Assembly (NCBI RefSeq): GCF_001305575.3
Contig: NZ_CP012373.2
Coordinates: forward strand, 992,001 to 1,056,000
DNA from: Beggiatoa leptomitoformis
GTDB taxonomy: Bacteria; Pseudomonadota; Gammaproteobacteria; Beggiatoales; Beggiatoaceae
Reading direction: 5' to 3'
Length of the DNA stretch: 64,000 nt
Part shown: one piece after another, positions 56,475 to 64,000 of the stretch
Position numbering within the stretch: the first letter of the stretch is position 1
Layout: each line of letters opens with the position of its first letter
Notes under the pieces: model-generated
Told to the model about the DNA's origin: nothing
The model's database searches: none
What the model saw: the letters and a program-made list of their open reading frames with translations, nothing else
Made by a program: the position numbers and the translations under genes

Positions 56475-56779
56475 GTCTGAATCAGGATTAAAAGACTGTC
56501 TGAATCAGGATTTTCAGGATTAAAAGATTGTCTGAATCAGAATTAACAGAATTTCCAGAATTAGCAGAATTAAAAACAATTAAAAACAATTAAAAACATA
56601 ATTTTTTTTATTCTTTTAATTTTCTTGTCTTTTTAATTCTGGAAATTTTGTTAATTCTGTTAATCCTGATTCAGACAATCTTTATCTTTAATTGTTTTTA
56701 ATTCTGGAAATTCTGGAAATTCTGAAAATTCTGATTCAGACAATCTTTTAATCCTGATTCAGACAATCTTTTAATCTTA
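56475..56779. repeat. Dense inverted-repeat field of the GATTCAGACA family
   Basis: The left part contains three GTCTGAATCAG copies in direct order (56475, near 56498 and near 56530); the right part contains three CTGATTCAGACA copies inverted (near 56666, 56731 and 56754). Between them is an AT-rich core with TTCTGGAAATTCTG-like units. The two halves can pair over much of their length. Related cores occur at 37135-37209. Confidence 0.7.
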
Positions 56780-56806: not shown

Positions 56807-59402
56807 ATGCTCAATATTTCCAATTTACGACACGCTATACAGCATTTTGATTTTCCTCAGCTCTTTATCAGTGAATTAGGCTGGAATCGACCTGAGAAAC
56901 GTAAAGCCTTTACTTTGTCGGTCGCAGAAGTTGATTACGACTGTTTACCGTTTGCAACGTTGGGAAAAGTCTTGGTGTTTCTGATTTCTGCCGATACATT
57001 TCCACAGGCGAAACAACGACAAGCCGTCGCGCAAGCGATAACGGCAGAATATAGCGTCGAGAATTTATTGATTTTTACCGATAAATCAACGCAAGCGGTT
57101 TTTTTCTGGGCAAAACGGGATGGCAATAAAACCCTACCGCGTGAACATGCTTATTTTCGCGGGCAGTCGGGCGATGCGTTAATCAGTAAATTAGCCGCTT
57201 TGTCGGTGGATTTTTCCGAATTGGATGATTCAGGCGATTTGGCACTGGTTGAAGTGTTGCAACGGTTGAAAAAAGCCTTAGATATTGAACCGATTACCAA
57301 AAAGTTTTATGCCGAGTTTTCAGGGTTTTTAGAGTCTTTTGTGTTAGAAATTCATGGCATTCCTGATGAACGTTCGCGGCGGTGGTACGCATCAGTGCTG
57401 TTGAATCGCATCATGTTTATTTGGTTTTTGCAGAAAAAAGGCTTTTTGGATAAGGGCAATCGAGATTATTTAACCCATAAGTTAGCAGAAAGCCAAACAC
57501 GTCAGGCAAATAGTTTTTATAAAGATTTTTTGCAAGTTTTGTTTTTTGAAGGTTTCGCTAAACCAGTGCATGAACGACAAAATAGCGCGCTGTTGGGTGA
57601 TATTCCTTATTTAAACGGCGGGCTGTTTTTAGAGCATAAGTTAGAAGTGCAGTATCGGGCGCAATTGACAATTGCCGATAAAGCTTTTGAACAGTTGTTT
57701 TTGCTTTTTCAGGGTTATTCATGGAGTTTGGACGATTCGCCAACGGGTAACGACCGCGAAATTAATCCTGATGTTTTAGGCTACATTTTTGAAAAATATA
57801 TTAATCAAAAGGCTTTTGGTGCGTATTACACCCGTAAAGAAATTACTGAATATTTATGTGAACGCACGATTCATCGTTTGATTTTGGATAAAGTGCAGTT
57901 GCCTGATATTACAGGGGTTTGTGAAGCGCGGCGTTTTGACAGTTTAACCGAATTATTAAGCCAATTAGATGAACAGCTCACGCATACCTTATTAAATACG
58001 ATTTTGCCCTCGTTAAAATTGTTAGACCCCGCTTGTGGTTCAGGGGCGTTTTTAGTCGCGGCGATGAAAACCTTGTTAGATATTTATCAGGCAATTAGTG
58101 CTAAATCAGCGACACCACATGGTTTGTATGAGATTAAAAAAAATATCATCACGCATAATTTATTTGGCGTGGATATTATGGAAGAAGCCACTGAAATTGC
58201 TAAGTTACGCCTGTTTTTGGCCTTAGTTGCGTCAGTGGAAAAAGCGGCGGATTTAGAACCTTTACCGAATATTGATTTTAACGTCATGGCGGGGAATTCA
58301 CTGGTCGGTTTATTAACGGTGGATGCCACTAAGTTTGAACAGTTTGATTTGTTTAAGAAAGAAAAATCCGTGCGTTATCATACTTTGTTAGCGGATAAAA
58401 ACCGCATGATTAGCAATTATCGAGAAGCAACGGCTTATAGTAAAGATTTGCGTGGTTTACGTGAAGCGATTGAACAAGCGCGGAAAGAAGCACAATTGGT
58501 GCTGAACCAGTTGTTATTAGAAGAGTTTCACCGCTTAAAAATTCAGTTTGAACAAATAACGTGGGACGAGGTGAAAAATAAAGAAGGTAAACCGCTAAAA
58601 CGGGCGTTGACGATTGCGGATATAGAACGGTTACAGCCATTTCATTGGGGTTATGAGTTTGATGAGGTGTTAGCGCGCGGGGGATTTGATGCGATTATTG
58701 CTAATCCGCCTTGGGATACGTTTAAACCGAACAGTAAAGAGTTTTTTCTCGACTATTCCGCTATTGTCAGCAAAAACAAAATGACGATTAAAGAATTTGA
58801 AAAAGAACAAGAAAAATTATTAACCGAACCTGAAATACAAACCGCATGGCTTGATTATTTAAGCCAATTTCCGCATGTGAGCCAGTTTTTACGGTCTGCG
58901 CCCCAATTTAAACATCAATCCGCTGTTGTCAATGGCAAAAAAACGGGCAGTGATGTTAATCTTTATAAACTATTTACCGAACAAAGTTTTAACCTGCTGC
59001 AACAAAACGGACTGTGTGGCATCGTGATTCCCAGCGGGATTTATACCGATTTAGGCGCGACGGGTTTACGGGATTTGTTGTTTTTAAAGACAGAAATCAC
59101 GGGATTATTTTGTTTTGAGAACCGCAAAGCTATTTTTGAAGGCGTGGATAGTCGTTTTAAATTTGTCGTATTGAGTTTTGAAAAAGGACGGACAACGGAT
59201 AAATTCCCCACCGCGTTTATGCGTCATGACTTGCAAGAATTAGAAACGTTTCCCGCACAAGGCGCGTTATGGTTATCGACGGATTTAATTAAAAAACTCT
59301 CGCCAGATTCACGTTCAGTGATGGAGTTTAAAAACGCATTAGATGTGCAAATTGCAGAGAAAATGTTGCAATTTCCGCTGTTAGGCGAACAATTAGAAAA
59401 TA
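56807..59402 (+). pseudogene. Type IIG-like restriction-modification enzyme, 5' part (interrupted by IS)
   Basis: Codons 1-865 of a gene whose 3' part resumes at 60281. Recognisable parts: an N-terminal ~400-residue region (with RSRRWYASVLLNRIMFIWFLQKKGFL and FGAYYTRKEITEYL), SAM-binding motif I LDPACGSGAFLVAA at about 406-419, VDIMEEATEIAKLRL, and the N6-adenine methyltransferase motif NPPW at 633-636. This is the Eco57I-like arrangement in which cleavage and methylation share one chain. I cannot point to a sure nuclease motif. Reading continues five codons into the IS and stops at 59419. The truncated product keeps the methylase motifs but loses the C-terminal specificity region. Confidence 0.88.
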
Positions 59403-59424
59403 TAGCAACAGTACTATAAAAAGA

Positions 59425-59895
59425 TTAAATAGAATTCAGTAAAAAGAGCTCATCAATAGAACAATGTTGTTGTTTACGGAGAGTCTTAGCCTGAGCCCAT
59501 TTATGCTCAATAGGATTTAAATCAGGCGAATAAGGCGGTAAATATTCCAAGAGATGCCCAGCGTCTAAAATAGCCTGCTGAATGTCACTACGTTTATGAA
59601 AAGTGGCGTTATCCATCACAATCACAGAATTCTGAGGGAGTTTAGGAAGTAAGTCTTGGGTTATCCAAGCGAAAAAGACATCGGAATTAATCGCCCCAGA
59701 AACTAAAGAGATGGTTAATAAACAAAAATTGAGCAAAGCCCCGATGACATTAGTACGTCCCTTTGCATTCCAATCTTGCGTGCCAAAGCAACGTTCGCCG
59801 ATAGGTGCATAACCAAAACGGCGTGGCATATCATGAGCAAAACCACTTTCATCGATGAAAACAATTTGCCTATCAGATTGTTTATAACGGTTCAT
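59425..59895 (-). CDS. IS630-type transposase, C-terminal DDE part (orfB)
   Basis: 156 residues from the first Met; the frame is open about 20 codons further upstream. It contains the catalytic acidic residues: IVFIDESGFAHDMPR (first Asp), VIVMDNATFHK (second Asp) and YLPPYSPDLNPIEHKW (Glu), the DDE signature of the family. It lies in a different frame from orfA. The two join as ...GISRKK then TLKHPKANPE through an A8 tract at 59949-59956. A fusion protein would need one A fewer (or two more), or a +1 shift. Confidence 0.9.
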   Translation of the reverse strand: MNRYKQSDRQIVFIDESGFAHDMPRRFGYAPIGERCFGTQDWNAKGRTNVIGALLNFCLLTISLVSGAINSDVFFAWITQDLLPKLPQNSVIVMDNATFHKRSDIQQAILDAGHLLEYLPPYSPDLNPIEHKWAQAKTLRKQQHCSIDELFLLNSI

Positions 59896-60247
59896 ATTGT
59901 CTTGGAAGATTTGCCGTGCTTCGGGGTTGGCTTTGGGGTGTTTGAGTGTTTTTTTTACGGCTAATCCCTAGACGTTTTAACGCATGGCGAATCCCGCCTT
60001 CCGTAATCCCAAAACGGGCTGCGCGTTCATAATGGTAAGCATCGGGATATAACGCCACATCTTGTCTTAAGGCTTCCATATCTATTTTAGTTGGTCTGTT
60101 ACGTGTCCCTTTGGCTTCCAATACTTTGCTCCACCTGACGACGCTTGCGATGGCTATTTGAAAGCGTTTCGCTACCGCTGCTAGGGTGAGATTTTCTTCT
60201 TGTTTCACTTTTAATACTTTTTTACGGAAATCTATTGAATAGGTCAT
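59882..60247 (-). CDS. IS630-type transposase, N-terminal helix-turn-helix part (orfA)
   Basis: 121 residues. The start TYSIDFRKKVLKVKQEENLT and ATG just inside the right IS end are typical. HTH: LAAVAKRFQIAIASVVRWSK, followed by a second helix-turn-helix (ERAARFGITEGGIRHALKRLGISRKK) that binds the inverted repeats. After the A8 tract the frame leaves the family sequence, so the last 24 residues are out of register. GAGGATAAGAA provides a ribosome-binding site. Confidence 0.88.
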   Translation of the reverse strand: MTYSIDFRKKVLKVKQEENLTLAAVAKRFQIAIASVVRWSKVLEAKGTRNRPTKIDMEALRQDVALYPDAYHYERAARFGITEGGIRHALKRLGISRKKNTQTPQSQPRSTANLPRQYEPL

Positions 60248-60280
60248 TTCTTATCCTCTTTTTAAAATACGGTTACTATA

Positions 60281-61044
60281 CGTGGAATTTAAAATTAAGT
60301 CGTGAATTTGACATGACTAACGACAGTCATTTGTTTAAAACCGAAGCGGGTGCGGGGCGGTTGCCCTTATTTACGGGCAAAATGTTTCATCAGTTTAGTT
60401 TAACAACAGAACATTCAGGTTATTGGATAGATGAATCTGATGGTAGAAAAAAATTTTTAGGAAAACAAGTGGATAATGGGAAAAAACTAGATTATCAAGG
60501 CTATCGTTGGTTACATAGAAGAATTGCAGGTAATACGAATGAGAGAACTTTCATTTCTACAATAACACCAAAAAACGTATTTACAGAAGTAAATAGCACC
60601 ACGTTAAAAGTTGCTGAAACAGGTATTAGTCATCAAGAAATGTTATTTTTTTGTGCTGTGTCTAACAGTTTTGTTTTAGATTATTTTCTACGACAAAAAG
60701 TTACAACAACTTTAAACATGTTTTACATTTATCAACTTCCCGTTTCCCGCCTAACCGCAACCGACCCGATATTTAACGAAATAGTCCAACGCGCTGCGCA
60801 ACTTATCTGCACCACGCCCGACTATGACGACTTACGCGATGAATTAAACCAATCAGGTTTTAAAATCCTCACAGGCGAAACCGACCCCAAACAACGCGCC
60901 CAACTCCGCGCCGAACTAGACGCACTCATCGCCCATTTATACGGCCTAACCCCAACAGAATTTGAACACGTATTAAATTCATTTCCATTGGTGACAGATG
61001 AAATAAAACAATTGGTTATGCGAGAGTTTCAAAAAATAAAATAA
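60281..61044 (+). pseudogene. Type IIG-like restriction-modification enzyme, 3' part
   Basis: Codons 866-1119 of the interrupted gene, with no start of its own. It begins with TWNLKLSREFDMTNDSH, a junction seen in Eco57I-like enzymes between the methylase and the target-recognition region. YWIDESDGRKKFLG, QGYRWLHRRIAGNTNERTFISTITP and FYIYQLPVSRL, with AHLYGLTPTEFEHVL near the end, are typical of the C-terminal specificity part. The joined gene is 3360 bp (1119 residues). An independent short product from an internal Met is possible but unsupported. Confidence 0.88.
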
Positions 61045-61082: not shown

Positions 61083-61126
61083 AAGCGATTGAACGCCTGC
61101 AATCAGTCACAGGAGTCTAATCGCTT
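61083..61126. repeat. Conserved spacer hairpin 1
   Basis: AAGCGATT at 61083-61090 pairs with AATCGCTT at 61119-61126, enclosing CCTGC...ACAGG. It lies just after the first Rpn-like gene on the minus strand. The same element recurs between the other copies, and it may terminate each gene. Confidence 0.6.
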
Positions 61127-61132
61127 CTTAAT

Positions 61133-62140
61133 CTAATTTTTTAACTGTTGAATTTCTTCCGCATTTAGTCCTGTGGCTTGTTCAATGGCTGCGGTATCTA
61201 AACCCAGTGAGATTAATTTTTTCGCAATCTCTATTCGTCCTTGCATTAAGCCCTTCTCCATGCCTTTCTCGATGCCTTGTTCGATGCCTTTCTCAATACC
61301 TTGTTCGATGCCTTTCTCGATACCCTTCGCCATACCCTGTTCTATACCCTGTTCTATACCCTTCTCGATGCCTTGTTCGATGCCTTTCTCGATGCCCTTC
61401 TCAATACCTTGTTCGATGCCTTTCTCGATACCTTTCGCCATGCCCTCCTTAATCGCTTGTTCCCGCATTTCGCGTTTGGCTTTTTCGTCGTTGTACTCTT
61501 CAATCATCCAATAGCGTTCTTCTGGGGATATATCATCTTTTTCAATGCGGTGGACTATTTTCTGAATTTCTGGGCGGTCATATTGGGATTCGTCAATTTC
61601 GCCGTCTAGGCTGTCATCTATGACTTGTAACCATTCACGGTATAGTGTGGGTGTATCGTCGTTAAGGTATTTAGGGCAGAGGTAAACGATTTTATGGGGA
61701 ATTTCTCCCAGTGGTTCGCCACGCCAGTTTTTGGGGTCAAAGTCTATGACTGATAGTGGGGATTTATGTTTGTCGCCTGAGGTTAAAACAACGATGGTAT
61801 AAACCGCTAAGTTAGGTCGGTAATCATAAGAATTTTTGATTTGTTCTAGGAGTGCCGCACAGTGGTAGTGTAAAAAGCGGTCATAGTGGTCATGGTCACG
61901 ACGATGTTGGATGTCGACGATAATGCGTTTTTTCTTGTCTTCGGCGTAGAGGTCAAAGCGGGGTTTGACATTGCCTATGATTGTGTCAAATTCTTTTTCG
62001 GTTTCAACAATTTCACAGTGAAAGTCTATACCCAGTATGTCATGCACAAAGCTGTTGAAAATTTCAACATCGCAAAAGGCTTTTTTAAATATCACGCCGT
62101 AACGTAGTGGGGCGACTTGTTTTATGTTGGTTTTGCTCAT
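61133..62140 (-). CDS. Rpn/PD-(D/E)XK nuclease-family protein, copy 1 (long repeat)
   Basis: 335 residues. N-terminal PD-(D/E)XK nuclease domain (PDDEXK_2 / Rpn type, about 1-220): PLRYGVIFKKAFCD, PRFDLYAEDKKKRIIVDIQHRRD (catalytic D...DxQ form), PKNWRGEPLGEIPHKIVYLCPKYL. Then a coiled linker (EEYNDEKAKREMREQ), 17 units of a 4-residue repeat ((I/M)(E/A)(K/Q)G), and the C-terminal helix SLGLDTAAIEQATGLNAEEIQQLK common to this family. Relatives promote RecA-independent recombination in E. coli. Residues 1-232 are almost identical to copies 2 and 3. Confidence 0.9.
   Translation of the reverse strand: MSKTNIKQVAPLRYGVIFKKAFCDVEIFNSFVHDILGIDFHCEIVETEKEFDTIIGNVKPRFDLYAEDKKKRIIVDIQHRRDHDHYDRFLHYHCAALLEQIKNSYDYRPNLAVYTIVVLTSGDKHKSPLSVIDFDPKNWRGEPLGEIPHKIVYLCPKYLNDDTPTLYREWLQVIDDSLDGEIDESQYDRPEIQKIVHRIEKDDISPEERYWMIEEYNDEKAKREMREQAIKEGMAKGIEKGIEQGIEKGIEKGIEQGIEKGIEQGIEQGMAKGIEKGIEQGIEKGIEQGIEKGMEKGLMQGRIEIAKKLISLGLDTAAIEQATGLNAEEIQQLKN
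61238..61441 (-). repeat. Coding minisatellite, 17 x 12 bp
   Basis: 204 bp encoding 17 tetrapeptide units of the form MAKG, IEKG, IEQG, MEKG and LMQG. The period-12 array is near perfect at DNA level. The matching array has 5 units at 62341-62400 and 7 units at 63300-63383. Confidence 0.9.
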
Positions 62141-62173
62141 GATTAACCTGTTAAATGTTTCTGATGTTCAATA

Positions 62174-62217
62174 AAGCGATTGAACGCCTGTAATCAGTCA
62201 CAGGAGTCTAATCGCTT
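62174..62217. repeat. Conserved spacer hairpin 2
   Basis: AAGCGATT at 62174-62181 pairs with AATCGCTT at 62210-62217. It is nearly identical to the elements at 61083 and 63133, including the inner CCTGT/ACAGG pair, and is placed identically between Rpn copies 1 and 2. Confidence 0.65.
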
Positions 62218-62223
62218 CTTAAT

Positions 62224-63099
62224 CTAATTTTTTAACTGTTGAATTTCTTCCGCATTTAGCCCCGTTGCTTGTTCAATGGCTGCGGTATCTAAACCCAGTG
62301 AGATTAATTTTTTTGCAATCTCTGTTTGTGTACTGGTTCGTCCTTGCATTAAGCCTTTCTCCATGCCTTTCTCAATGCCTTTCTCGATACCCTTCTCCAT
62401 GCCCTCTTTAACCGCTTGTTCCCGCATTTCGCGTTTGGCTTTTTCGTCGTTGTATTCTTCAATCATCCAATAGCGTTCTTCTGGGGATATATCATCTTTT
62501 TCAATGCGGTGGACTATTTTCTGAATTTCTGGGCGGTCATATTGGGATTCGTCAATTTCGCCGTCTAGGCTGTCATCTATGACTTGTAACCATTCACGGT
62601 ATAGCGTGGGTGTATCGTCGTTAAGGTATTTAGGGCAGAGGTAAACAATTTTATGGGGAATTTCTCCCAGTGGTTCGCCACGCCAGTTTTTGGGGTCGAA
62701 GTCTATGACGGATAATGGGGATTTATGTTTGTCGCCTGAGGTTAAAACAACGATGGTATAAACCGCTAAGTTAGGTCGGTAATCATAAGAATTTTTGATT
62801 TGTTCTAGGAGTGCCGCGCAGTGGTAGTGTAAAAAACGGTCATAGTGGTCATGGTCTCTGCGGTGTTGGATGTCGACGATAATGCGTTTTTTCTTGTCTT
62901 CAGCGTAGAGGTCAAAGCGGGGTTTGACATTGCCTATGATTGTGTCAAATTCTTTTTCGGTTTCAACAATTTCACAGTGAAAGTCTATACCCAGTATGTC
63001 ATGCACAAAGCTGTTGAAAATTTCAACATCGCAGAAGGCTTTTTTAAATATCACGCCGTAACGTAGTGGGACGACTTGTTTTATGTTGGTTTTGCTCAT
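62224..63099 (-). CDS. Rpn/PD-(D/E)XK nuclease-family protein, copy 2
   Basis: 291 residues, identical to copy 1 over almost the whole nuclease domain (one difference seen near the start: QVVPLRYG versus QVAPLRYG). The repeat has only 5 tetrapeptide units, followed by RTSTQTEIAKK, whereas copy 1 has RIEIAKK. The catalytic FDLYAED and IIVDIQH are intact. About 84 bp separate it from each neighbour, each spacer carrying the same hairpin, so the genes arose by tandem duplication of a gene-plus-spacer unit. Confidence 0.9.
   Translation of the reverse strand: MSKTNIKQVVPLRYGVIFKKAFCDVEIFNSFVHDILGIDFHCEIVETEKEFDTIIGNVKPRFDLYAEDKKKRIIVDIQHRRDHDHYDRFLHYHCAALLEQIKNSYDYRPNLAVYTIVVLTSGDKHKSPLSVIDFDPKNWRGEPLGEIPHKIVYLCPKYLNDDTPTLYREWLQVIDDSLDGEIDESQYDRPEIQKIVHRIEKDDISPEERYWMIEEYNDEKAKREMREQAVKEGMEKGIEKGIEKGMEKGLMQGRTSTQTEIAKKLISLGLDTAAIEQATGLNAEEIQQLKN
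62341..62400 (-). repeat. Coding minisatellite, 5 x 12 bp
   Basis: Five tetrapeptide units (MEKG, IEKG, IEKG, MEKG, LMQG) at the same protein position as the 17-unit array of copy 1. The downstream sequence of the gene is otherwise unchanged. Confidence 0.88.
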
Positions 63100-63132
63100 G
63101 ATTGACCTGTTAAATGTTTCTGATGTCCAATA

Positions 63133-63176
63133 AAGCGATTGAACGCCTGCAATCAGTCACAGGAGTCTAATCGCTT
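63133..63176. repeat. Conserved spacer hairpin 3
   Basis: AAGCGATT at 63133-63140 pairs with AATCGCTT at 63169-63176. It has the same layout as the other two spacers and lies about 35 bp upstream of the start of copy 2 on the minus strand. Confidence 0.65.
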
Positions 63177-63182
63177 CTTGAT

Positions 63183-64000
63183 CTAATTTTTTAACTGTTG
63201 AATTTCTTCCGCATTTAGCCCTGTGGCTTGTTCAATGGCGGCGGTATCTAAACCCAGTGAGATTAATTTTTTCGCAATTTCTGTTTGTGTACTGGTTCGT
63301 CCTTCCATTAAGCCCTTCTCAATGCCTTTCTCGATGCCTTTCTCGATACCCTTCGCCATACCCTGTTCTATACCCTTCTCCATGCCCTCCTTAATCGCTT
63401 GTTCCCGCATTTCGCGTTTGGCTTTTTCGTCGTTGTATTCTTCAATCATCCAATAGCGTTCTTCTGGGGATATATCATCTTTTTCAATGCGGTGGACTAT
63501 TTTCTGAATTTCTGGGCGGTCATATTGGGATTCGTCAATTTCGCCGTCTAGGCTGTCATCTATGACTTGTAACCATTCACGGTATAGTGTGGGTGTATCG
63601 TCGTTTAAGTATTTAGGGCAGAGGTAAACAATTTTATGGGGAATTTCTCCCAGTGGTTCGCCACGCCAGTTTTTGGGGTCGAAGTCTATGACTGATAGTG
63701 GGGATTTATGTTTGTCGCCTGAGGTTAAAACAACGATGGTATAAACCGCTAAGTTAGGTCGGTAATCATAAGAATTTTTGATTTGTTCTAGGAGTGCCGC
63801 GCAGTGGTAGTGTAAAAAACGGTCATAGTGGTCATGGTCTCTGCGGTGTTGGATGTCGACGATAATGCGTTTTTTCTTGTCTTCAGCGTAGAGGTCAAAG
63901 CGGGGTTTGACATTGCCTATGATTGTGTCAAATTCTTTTTCGGTTTCAACAATTTCACAGTGAAAGTCTATACCCAGTATGTCATGCACAAAGCTGTTGA
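63183..64000 (-). CDS. Rpn/PD-(D/E)XK nuclease-family protein, copy 3, cut by window edge
   Basis: The C-terminal 271 residues are visible; the frame is open to the window edge and would need about 20 more residues, judging by copies 1 and 2. Sequence is again identical to copies 1 and 2 across the nuclease domain (FDLYAED, IIVDIQH). The repeat has 7 units (MEKG, IEQG, MAKG, IEKG, IEKG, IEKG, LMEG) followed by RTSTQTEIAKK as in copy 2. Copies 2 and 3 are therefore closer to each other in this part than to copy 1. More copies may lie beyond the window. Confidence 0.88.
   Translation of the reverse strand, partial: NSFVHDILGIDFHCEIVETEKEFDTIIGNVKPRFDLYAEDKKKRIIVDIQHRRDHDHYDRFLHYHCAALLEQIKNSYDYRPNLAVYTIVVLTSGDKHKSPLSVIDFDPKNWRGEPLGEIPHKIVYLCPKYLNDDTPTLYREWLQVIDDSLDGEIDESQYDRPEIQKIVHRIEKDDISPEERYWMIEEYNDEKAKREMREQAIKEGMEKGIEQGMAKGIEKGIEKGIEKGLMEGRTSTQTEIAKKLISLGLDTAAIEQATGLNAEEIQQLKN
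63300..63383 (-). repeat. Coding minisatellite, 7 x 12 bp
   Basis: Seven tetrapeptide units in copy 3 at the same position as the arrays in copies 1 and 2. Unit order differs, so the arrays changed independently after duplication. Confidence 0.88.

Follow-up and report, generated by a model that had tools for sequence, protein, structure and literature searches.

The end of the window (the whole 64,000-nucleotide stretch of the Beggiatoa leptomitoformis genome analyzed here) raises the question of why a bacterium would keep, side by side, three Rpn-type nuclease genes that are almost the same except for the number of twelve-base units in each. The three tandem ORFs are all on the minus strand, full-length and open, and are transcribed in the order copy 3, copy 2, copy 1. 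Copy 1 (61133..62140) encodes 335 aa with 17 four-residue units and has a 12-bp deletion 3' of the repeats, copy 2 (62224..63099) encodes 291 aa with 5 units, and copy 3 (63183..64082, of which 63183..64000 is inside the window) encodes 299 aa from MSKTNI with 7 units. The ORFs and tract counts thus confirm the near-identical tandem Rpn genes with 17, 5, and 7 units described in the first-pass annotation. The start codon of copy 3 (genome position 1056082, window position 64082) is 82 bases beyond the window. Because a FadL-like gene sits upstream of this copy, the search for further copies past position 64,000 ends with copy 3 and the array contains exactly three. The spacers between the copies are 83 bp. 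Across the first 672 coding bases, pairwise identity among the copies is 97.8–99.1%, with 15 differing positions between copies 1 and 2, 15 between copies 1 and 3, and six between copies 2 and 3, nearly all of them synonymous (13 synonymous and one or two non-synonymous changes in the nuclease half for copies 1 and 2). Since these substitutions are scattered between the copies and the host genome is a single contig of 4,265,317 bases, the earlier concern that the copies could be an assembly artefact of one gene is argued against. In the closest relative compared, from the same genus, another gene adjoins the FadL-like gene and no rpn gene lies beside it, indicating that the array is not fixed in the genus.

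The repeat tracts of copies 1, 2, and 3 (61238..61441, 62341..62400, and 63300..63383, respectively; all minus strand) contain 17, 5, and 7 units of 12 bp when the closing LMQG/LMEG unit is included, and 16, 4, and 6 without it. They are not chance sequences, given Tandem Repeats Finder scores of 152/225, 74, and 68. Besides the repeats, copy 1 lacks 12 bp directly 3' of them (RIEIAKK vs. RTSTQTEIAKK), a deletion that was overlooked in the first reading. The protein lengths therefore differ between the copies by 44, 36, and 8 aa, all multiples of four residues, and the earlier claim that repeat number changes in frame holds. An exact 36-bp block is common to the copy 1 and copy 3 tracts, and a four-unit block recurs within the copy 1 tract with two mismatches. 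Exact repetition in copy 1 never extends past a block of two units (shuffle test, P 0.38), so block duplication is suggested by near-identical blocks only. Slippage and unequal crossing over are, judging from these tracts, a plausible source of the changes in unit number.

All three copies match PF12784 (PDDEXK_2) at 31–32 bits (cut-off 27.4). By profile, they also belong to the same family as TIGR01784 (Rpn family recombination-promoting nuclease/putative transposase), although they score just under its curated cut-off (49.1 bits for copy 2, the best of the three, vs. 52.1), which many other host paralogues pass. The active-site signature D...(D/E)xQ, including the unusual glutamine of the family, is present as D63, D76, and Q78. 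The predicted active-site segment of copy 1 (D63...D76-x-Q78) is at 61907..61954 on the minus strand. D63 and Q78 are conserved in at least 90% of 62 relatives, and D63 is invariant among 53. The active-site residues of Escherichia coli RpnA are D63, E82, and Q84, and its D11 is also essential in E. coli (PMC5350276). In the subfamily of the window copies, the equivalent of D11 is a glycine (G15). Because of this difference, and because a profile search of the window copies with PF04754 (Transposase_31) gave no match, the copies are not placed in the RpnA subfamily of E. coli. The nearest solved folds in a Foldseek search are PD-(D/E)XK nucleases (McrC, BspD6I, and Bax1), with weak similarity (best E 5.3e-3). 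By these sequence criteria, the first 224 aa or so, the N-terminal half, form a PD-(D/E)XK-like DNA nuclease, probably an active one. Membership of the Rpn nuclease family, as first annotated, is borne out by the PF12784 match, the D...(D/E)xQ signature, and an RpnA-type C-terminal domain. A transposase reading was rejected on published grounds (PMC10327210); rpn genes are reported to have neither terminal inverted repeats nor target-site duplications (PMC10327210).

The C-terminal half is, on profile evidence, homologous to the RpnS antitoxin/dimerization domain of E. coli RpnA. When a profile of the 62 relatives was compared with the PDB, the best match was the solved antitoxin domain of E. 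coli RpnA (7TH0), which covers the C-terminal domain with E = 2.2e-5, and the second-best match had an E value of 0.021. A direct phmmer search of the PDB with copy 2 gave no match. In an hhalign comparison, the relatives' profile could be aligned over almost its whole length with that of E. coli RpnA/B/C/E (probability 97.6, E 2.7e-12, 256 columns); around the (D/E)xQ motif, the register of this automatic alignment is shifted by two residues, and that part was read by eye. The tail of copy 1 (61133..61237, minus strand) comprises the last part of a long helix plus two short ones, with homology to RpnA-S (PDB 7TH0). The tail of copy 2 (62224..62340, minus strand) is the same RpnA-S-like domain, and the amino acids that follow the repeats in copy 3 (63183..63299, minus strand) are identical to those of copy 2. 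The AlphaFold model of copy 2 (pLDDT 92.6) has a mixed alpha/beta nuclease part, an unbroken helix at residues 206–267 that runs through the repeats, and short helices at 272–279 and 283–290. The model of copy 1 has a longer helix (206–264 and 266–311) that is less confident in its middle. The copies thus contain an RpnS-type domain of three helices, the first of which carries the variable four-residue repeats. The repeats had been described as a linker between the nuclease and a helix, a description that does not survive the models of copies 1 and 2, in which they are predicted to form the long helix itself.

This architecture is known from E. coli. As Zhong et al. found (PMC10327210), the toxic nuclease of an Rpn gene (RpnL) comes with a small C-terminal antitoxin (RpnS), whose translation starts either within the same gene or at a separate one. 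The dimer interface of RpnS is a helix with four-residue repeats, the number of which varies between strains in several species, and Rpn arrays appear to be formed by tandem duplication (PMC10327210). Pairing of RpnL with RpnS is specific to the same gene and the same repeat number; in RpnC, one added repeat abolishes inhibition unless both partners carry it (PMC10327210). The window copies share with E. coli RpnA–RpnE (PF04754/COG5464; PMC10327210, PMC5350276) a nuclease joined to an RpnA-S-like helical domain, a first helix with four-residue repeats, arrays formed by tandem duplication, and the D and (D/E)xQ signature. They differ in having a PDDEXK_2 (PF12784) rather than a PF04754 nuclease, a glycine at the D11 position, no clear AAGGAG-N6-ATG internal start, up to 17 units, and a host with very many copies. 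Because variable four-residue repeats in the dimerizing helix were already reported in PMC10327210, the "length-tuned nuclease" proposed in the first-pass annotation is essentially a known model. Its core stands, and partner recognition fits better than tuning. The basic phenomenon is therefore published, and the window array is a clear further example of it. A defence role also continues to be plausible, as RpnP2 protects E. coli from some T-even phages (PMC10327210). By analogy with these systems, the window copies may act as nucleases, may recognize their partners by helix length, and may take part in phage defence.

A separately made short antitoxin is a candidate product of the window copies. 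Candidate internal starts are found in copy 1 (61439..61451, minus strand), where TAAGGAGGGC is followed by the ATG that opens the first unit at a spacing of only 2 nt, and in copy 3 (63381..63393, minus strand), where TAAGGAGGGC precedes the ATG at the first unit, also by 2 nt. Copy 2 carries TAAAGAGGGC where copies 1 and 3 have TAAGGAGGGC. In E. coli rpn genes, a strong ribosome site is located shortly 5' of the internal ATG. Compared with synonymous-codon shuffles, the internal ribosome-site score has P values of 0.03 (copy 1), 0.64 (copy 2), and 0.02 (copy 3) in a test of low power, weak because five E. coli rpn positive controls reach only 0.07–0.34. No conserved internal ribosome-binding site emerges, as it is strong at poor spacing in copies 1 and 3 and absent in copy 2, and only five of 99 relatives have P ≤0.05, which is no excess. 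Elsewhere in the host genome, a free-standing C-terminal Rpn gene of 116 aa (1452303-1452653) begins 61 bp after its full-length parent, an arrangement that resembles rpnE-ypaA of E. coli. By a simple count, it has nine units and the parent 16, a pair that would be mismatched under the published rule. A 65-aa C-terminal ORF (genome 3584608) was rejected as another free-standing antitoxin, because it turned out to be the 3' remainder of an rpn copy that an IS630-type element has cut in two.

The host carries about 40–50 Rpn-like genes. TIGR01784 matches 53 stretches, from which about 48 ORFs were recovered, many of them in tandem; the paralogues were collected region by region. Among them, 41 ORFs have a full nuclease part and at least two xxxG units (2 to 18 units, median 7, by a simple count that adds one leading unit and gives 18, 6, and 8 for window copies 1, 2, and 3). 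In the 12 adjacent full-length pairs, the nuclease part has dS of 0.04–0.16 and dN of 0–0.011 (161.5 synonymous and 19.5 non-synonymous changes in total) and is under strong purifying selection in every array, whereas the tails sum to 92 synonymous and 177 non-synonymous changes. The C-terminal part diverges in every array. None of these 12 pairs has a common repeat tract, and the tails of the two pairs with equal unit number are only 47–50% identical. Among all host pairs with nuclease parts at least 90% identical, three of 35 share the tract, and two of those three differ in the tail. In other genomes, all eight adjacent pairs with nuclease identity of at least 94% differ in the repeat tract (one includes a partial gene). 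Several other host arrays exhibit exchange of whole tails (nuclease dS about 0.1, tail dN 0.39–0.91). For example, two adjacent genes at genome 3351380-3353306 have nuclease halves that are 98% identical but wholly different C-terminal domains (tails 34% identical), pointing to domain exchange at the repeats. A search for module exchange between paralogue lineages found no host pair that combines near-identical tails with dissimilar nucleases, and hence no donor of the swapped tails. The window array has no tail swap and is the purest case, with unit number essentially the sole difference. This regular C-terminal divergence suggests that the arrays may be sets of mutually insulated toxin-antitoxin pairs.

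By standard helix geometry, every four residues turn an alpha helix by about 400 degrees and lengthen it by 6 angstroms, and a glycine at every fourth position suits close helix packing. Each 12-bp unit would extend the long helix by four residues (h-x-x-G), and whatever follows an added unit would be displaced and rotated with respect to a partner of different unit number. Such a displacement could account both for the failure of unequal partners in E. coli and for insulation among the three window copies. By analogy with E. coli RpnC, unit number would set which long and short partners pair, and 17, 5, and 7 units on the same nuclease are therefore expected to yield separate, poorly cross-reacting sets. 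The gene copies may have arisen by tandem duplication of the gene with its spacer, and units may have been gained or lost, always in frame, by slippage or unequal recombination. Taking these elements together, we consider it reasonably probable that the array consists of tandem Rpn-type toxin-antitoxin and anti-phage nuclease paralogues, with unit number setting the partners of poorly cross-reacting sets that were formed by duplication and by slippage or recombination. More speculatively, helix length and tail type might form an address code, by which each copy is silenced by its own short partner only and identical nucleases are held ready to be released independently; we regard this extension as possible but doubtful.

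The main alternative is neutral slippage, in which these are ordinary Rpn nucleases, unit number drifts within a tolerated range, and the differences between copies are functionally meaningless. Repeats of twelve bases mutate readily and never disturb the frame, unit number ranges from 2 to 18 in dispersed as well as tandem paralogues, and the tract is unchanged between the members of one dispersed host pair. The repeat numbers are explicable by neutral slippage, and the counts alone cannot reject it. However, one added unit in E. coli RpnC abolishes cognate inhibition (PMC10327210), and slippage cannot yield the whole-tail swaps of other arrays, a feature that the window array does not have. 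On balance, drift without function appears rather unlikely.

Much less probable is that the array is one expanded set forming mixed oligomers, in which helices of different lengths would give assemblies of different geometry, for example in the spacing of cut sites, as with TAEL in EcoR124I. The EcoR124I/II precedent is cited in PMC10327210, all copies have the same nuclease half, and the 83-bp spacers make co-transcription possible. The likeness to the HsdS subunits of EcoR124I and EcoR124II, which have two or three TAEL repeats, is a four-residue repeat whose number alters function. It is an analogy only, as HsdS is a type I restriction specificity subunit and no domains common with the Rpn copies were found. 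Moreover, PMC5350276 describes RpnA as a non-specific endonuclease, RpnL–RpnS pairing in E. coli is specific for gene and repeat number (PMC10327210), and strong hairpins lie between the genes. Least probable of all, and very improbable in our judgment, is that the copies are remnants or inactive relatives duplicated by chance and devoid of nuclease activity. The loss of the D11 equivalent and a related array with a copy broken by an IS630-type element would fit such decay, but the nuclease half is under strong purifying selection in every array and each window copy is an uninterrupted full-length frame. The window array is a clean natural test case for the published proposal that Rpn partners are matched by repeat number, as the nuclease halves are identical or one residue apart and the C-terminal halves differ essentially in length only. 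The additions made here are the host-wide count of Rpn genes and the pattern of constant nucleases with different tracts in 12 host pairs and eight pairs elsewhere. If functional, the combination of a constant nuclease with differing recognition domains within arrays would account for the dozens of Rpn genes retained by some bacteria.

Each Rpn copy is followed by a 44-nt hairpin, identified by fold energy and a genome search (61083..61126 for copy 1; 62174..62217 for copy 2, in the spacer before copy 1; and 63133..63176 for copy 3, in the spacer before copy 2; all minus strand). Its folding energy is about −23 kcal/mol (z −3.4 to −5.2), it is confined to these three sites genome-wide, and it has no run of Ts such as a standard terminator carries. 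Neither intrinsic terminators nor sigma-70 promoters exceed chance expectation, and an Rfam search returned no family. Beside the array is a type IIG restriction-methylation gene (window 56807-61044), which an IS630-type element (59425-60247, likewise broken into two frames) divides into an 870-aa part (56807-59419) and a C-terminal part (60235-61044). A nearly identical element splits one copy of another rpn array (genome 3584608-3586259), so this IS630-type element has hit two defence-type loci. Finally, short AT-rich tandem and inverted repeats with periods of 9, 10, 23, and 32 bp (AATTCTGA-like) are present upstream of the restriction gene (window 56482-56776).
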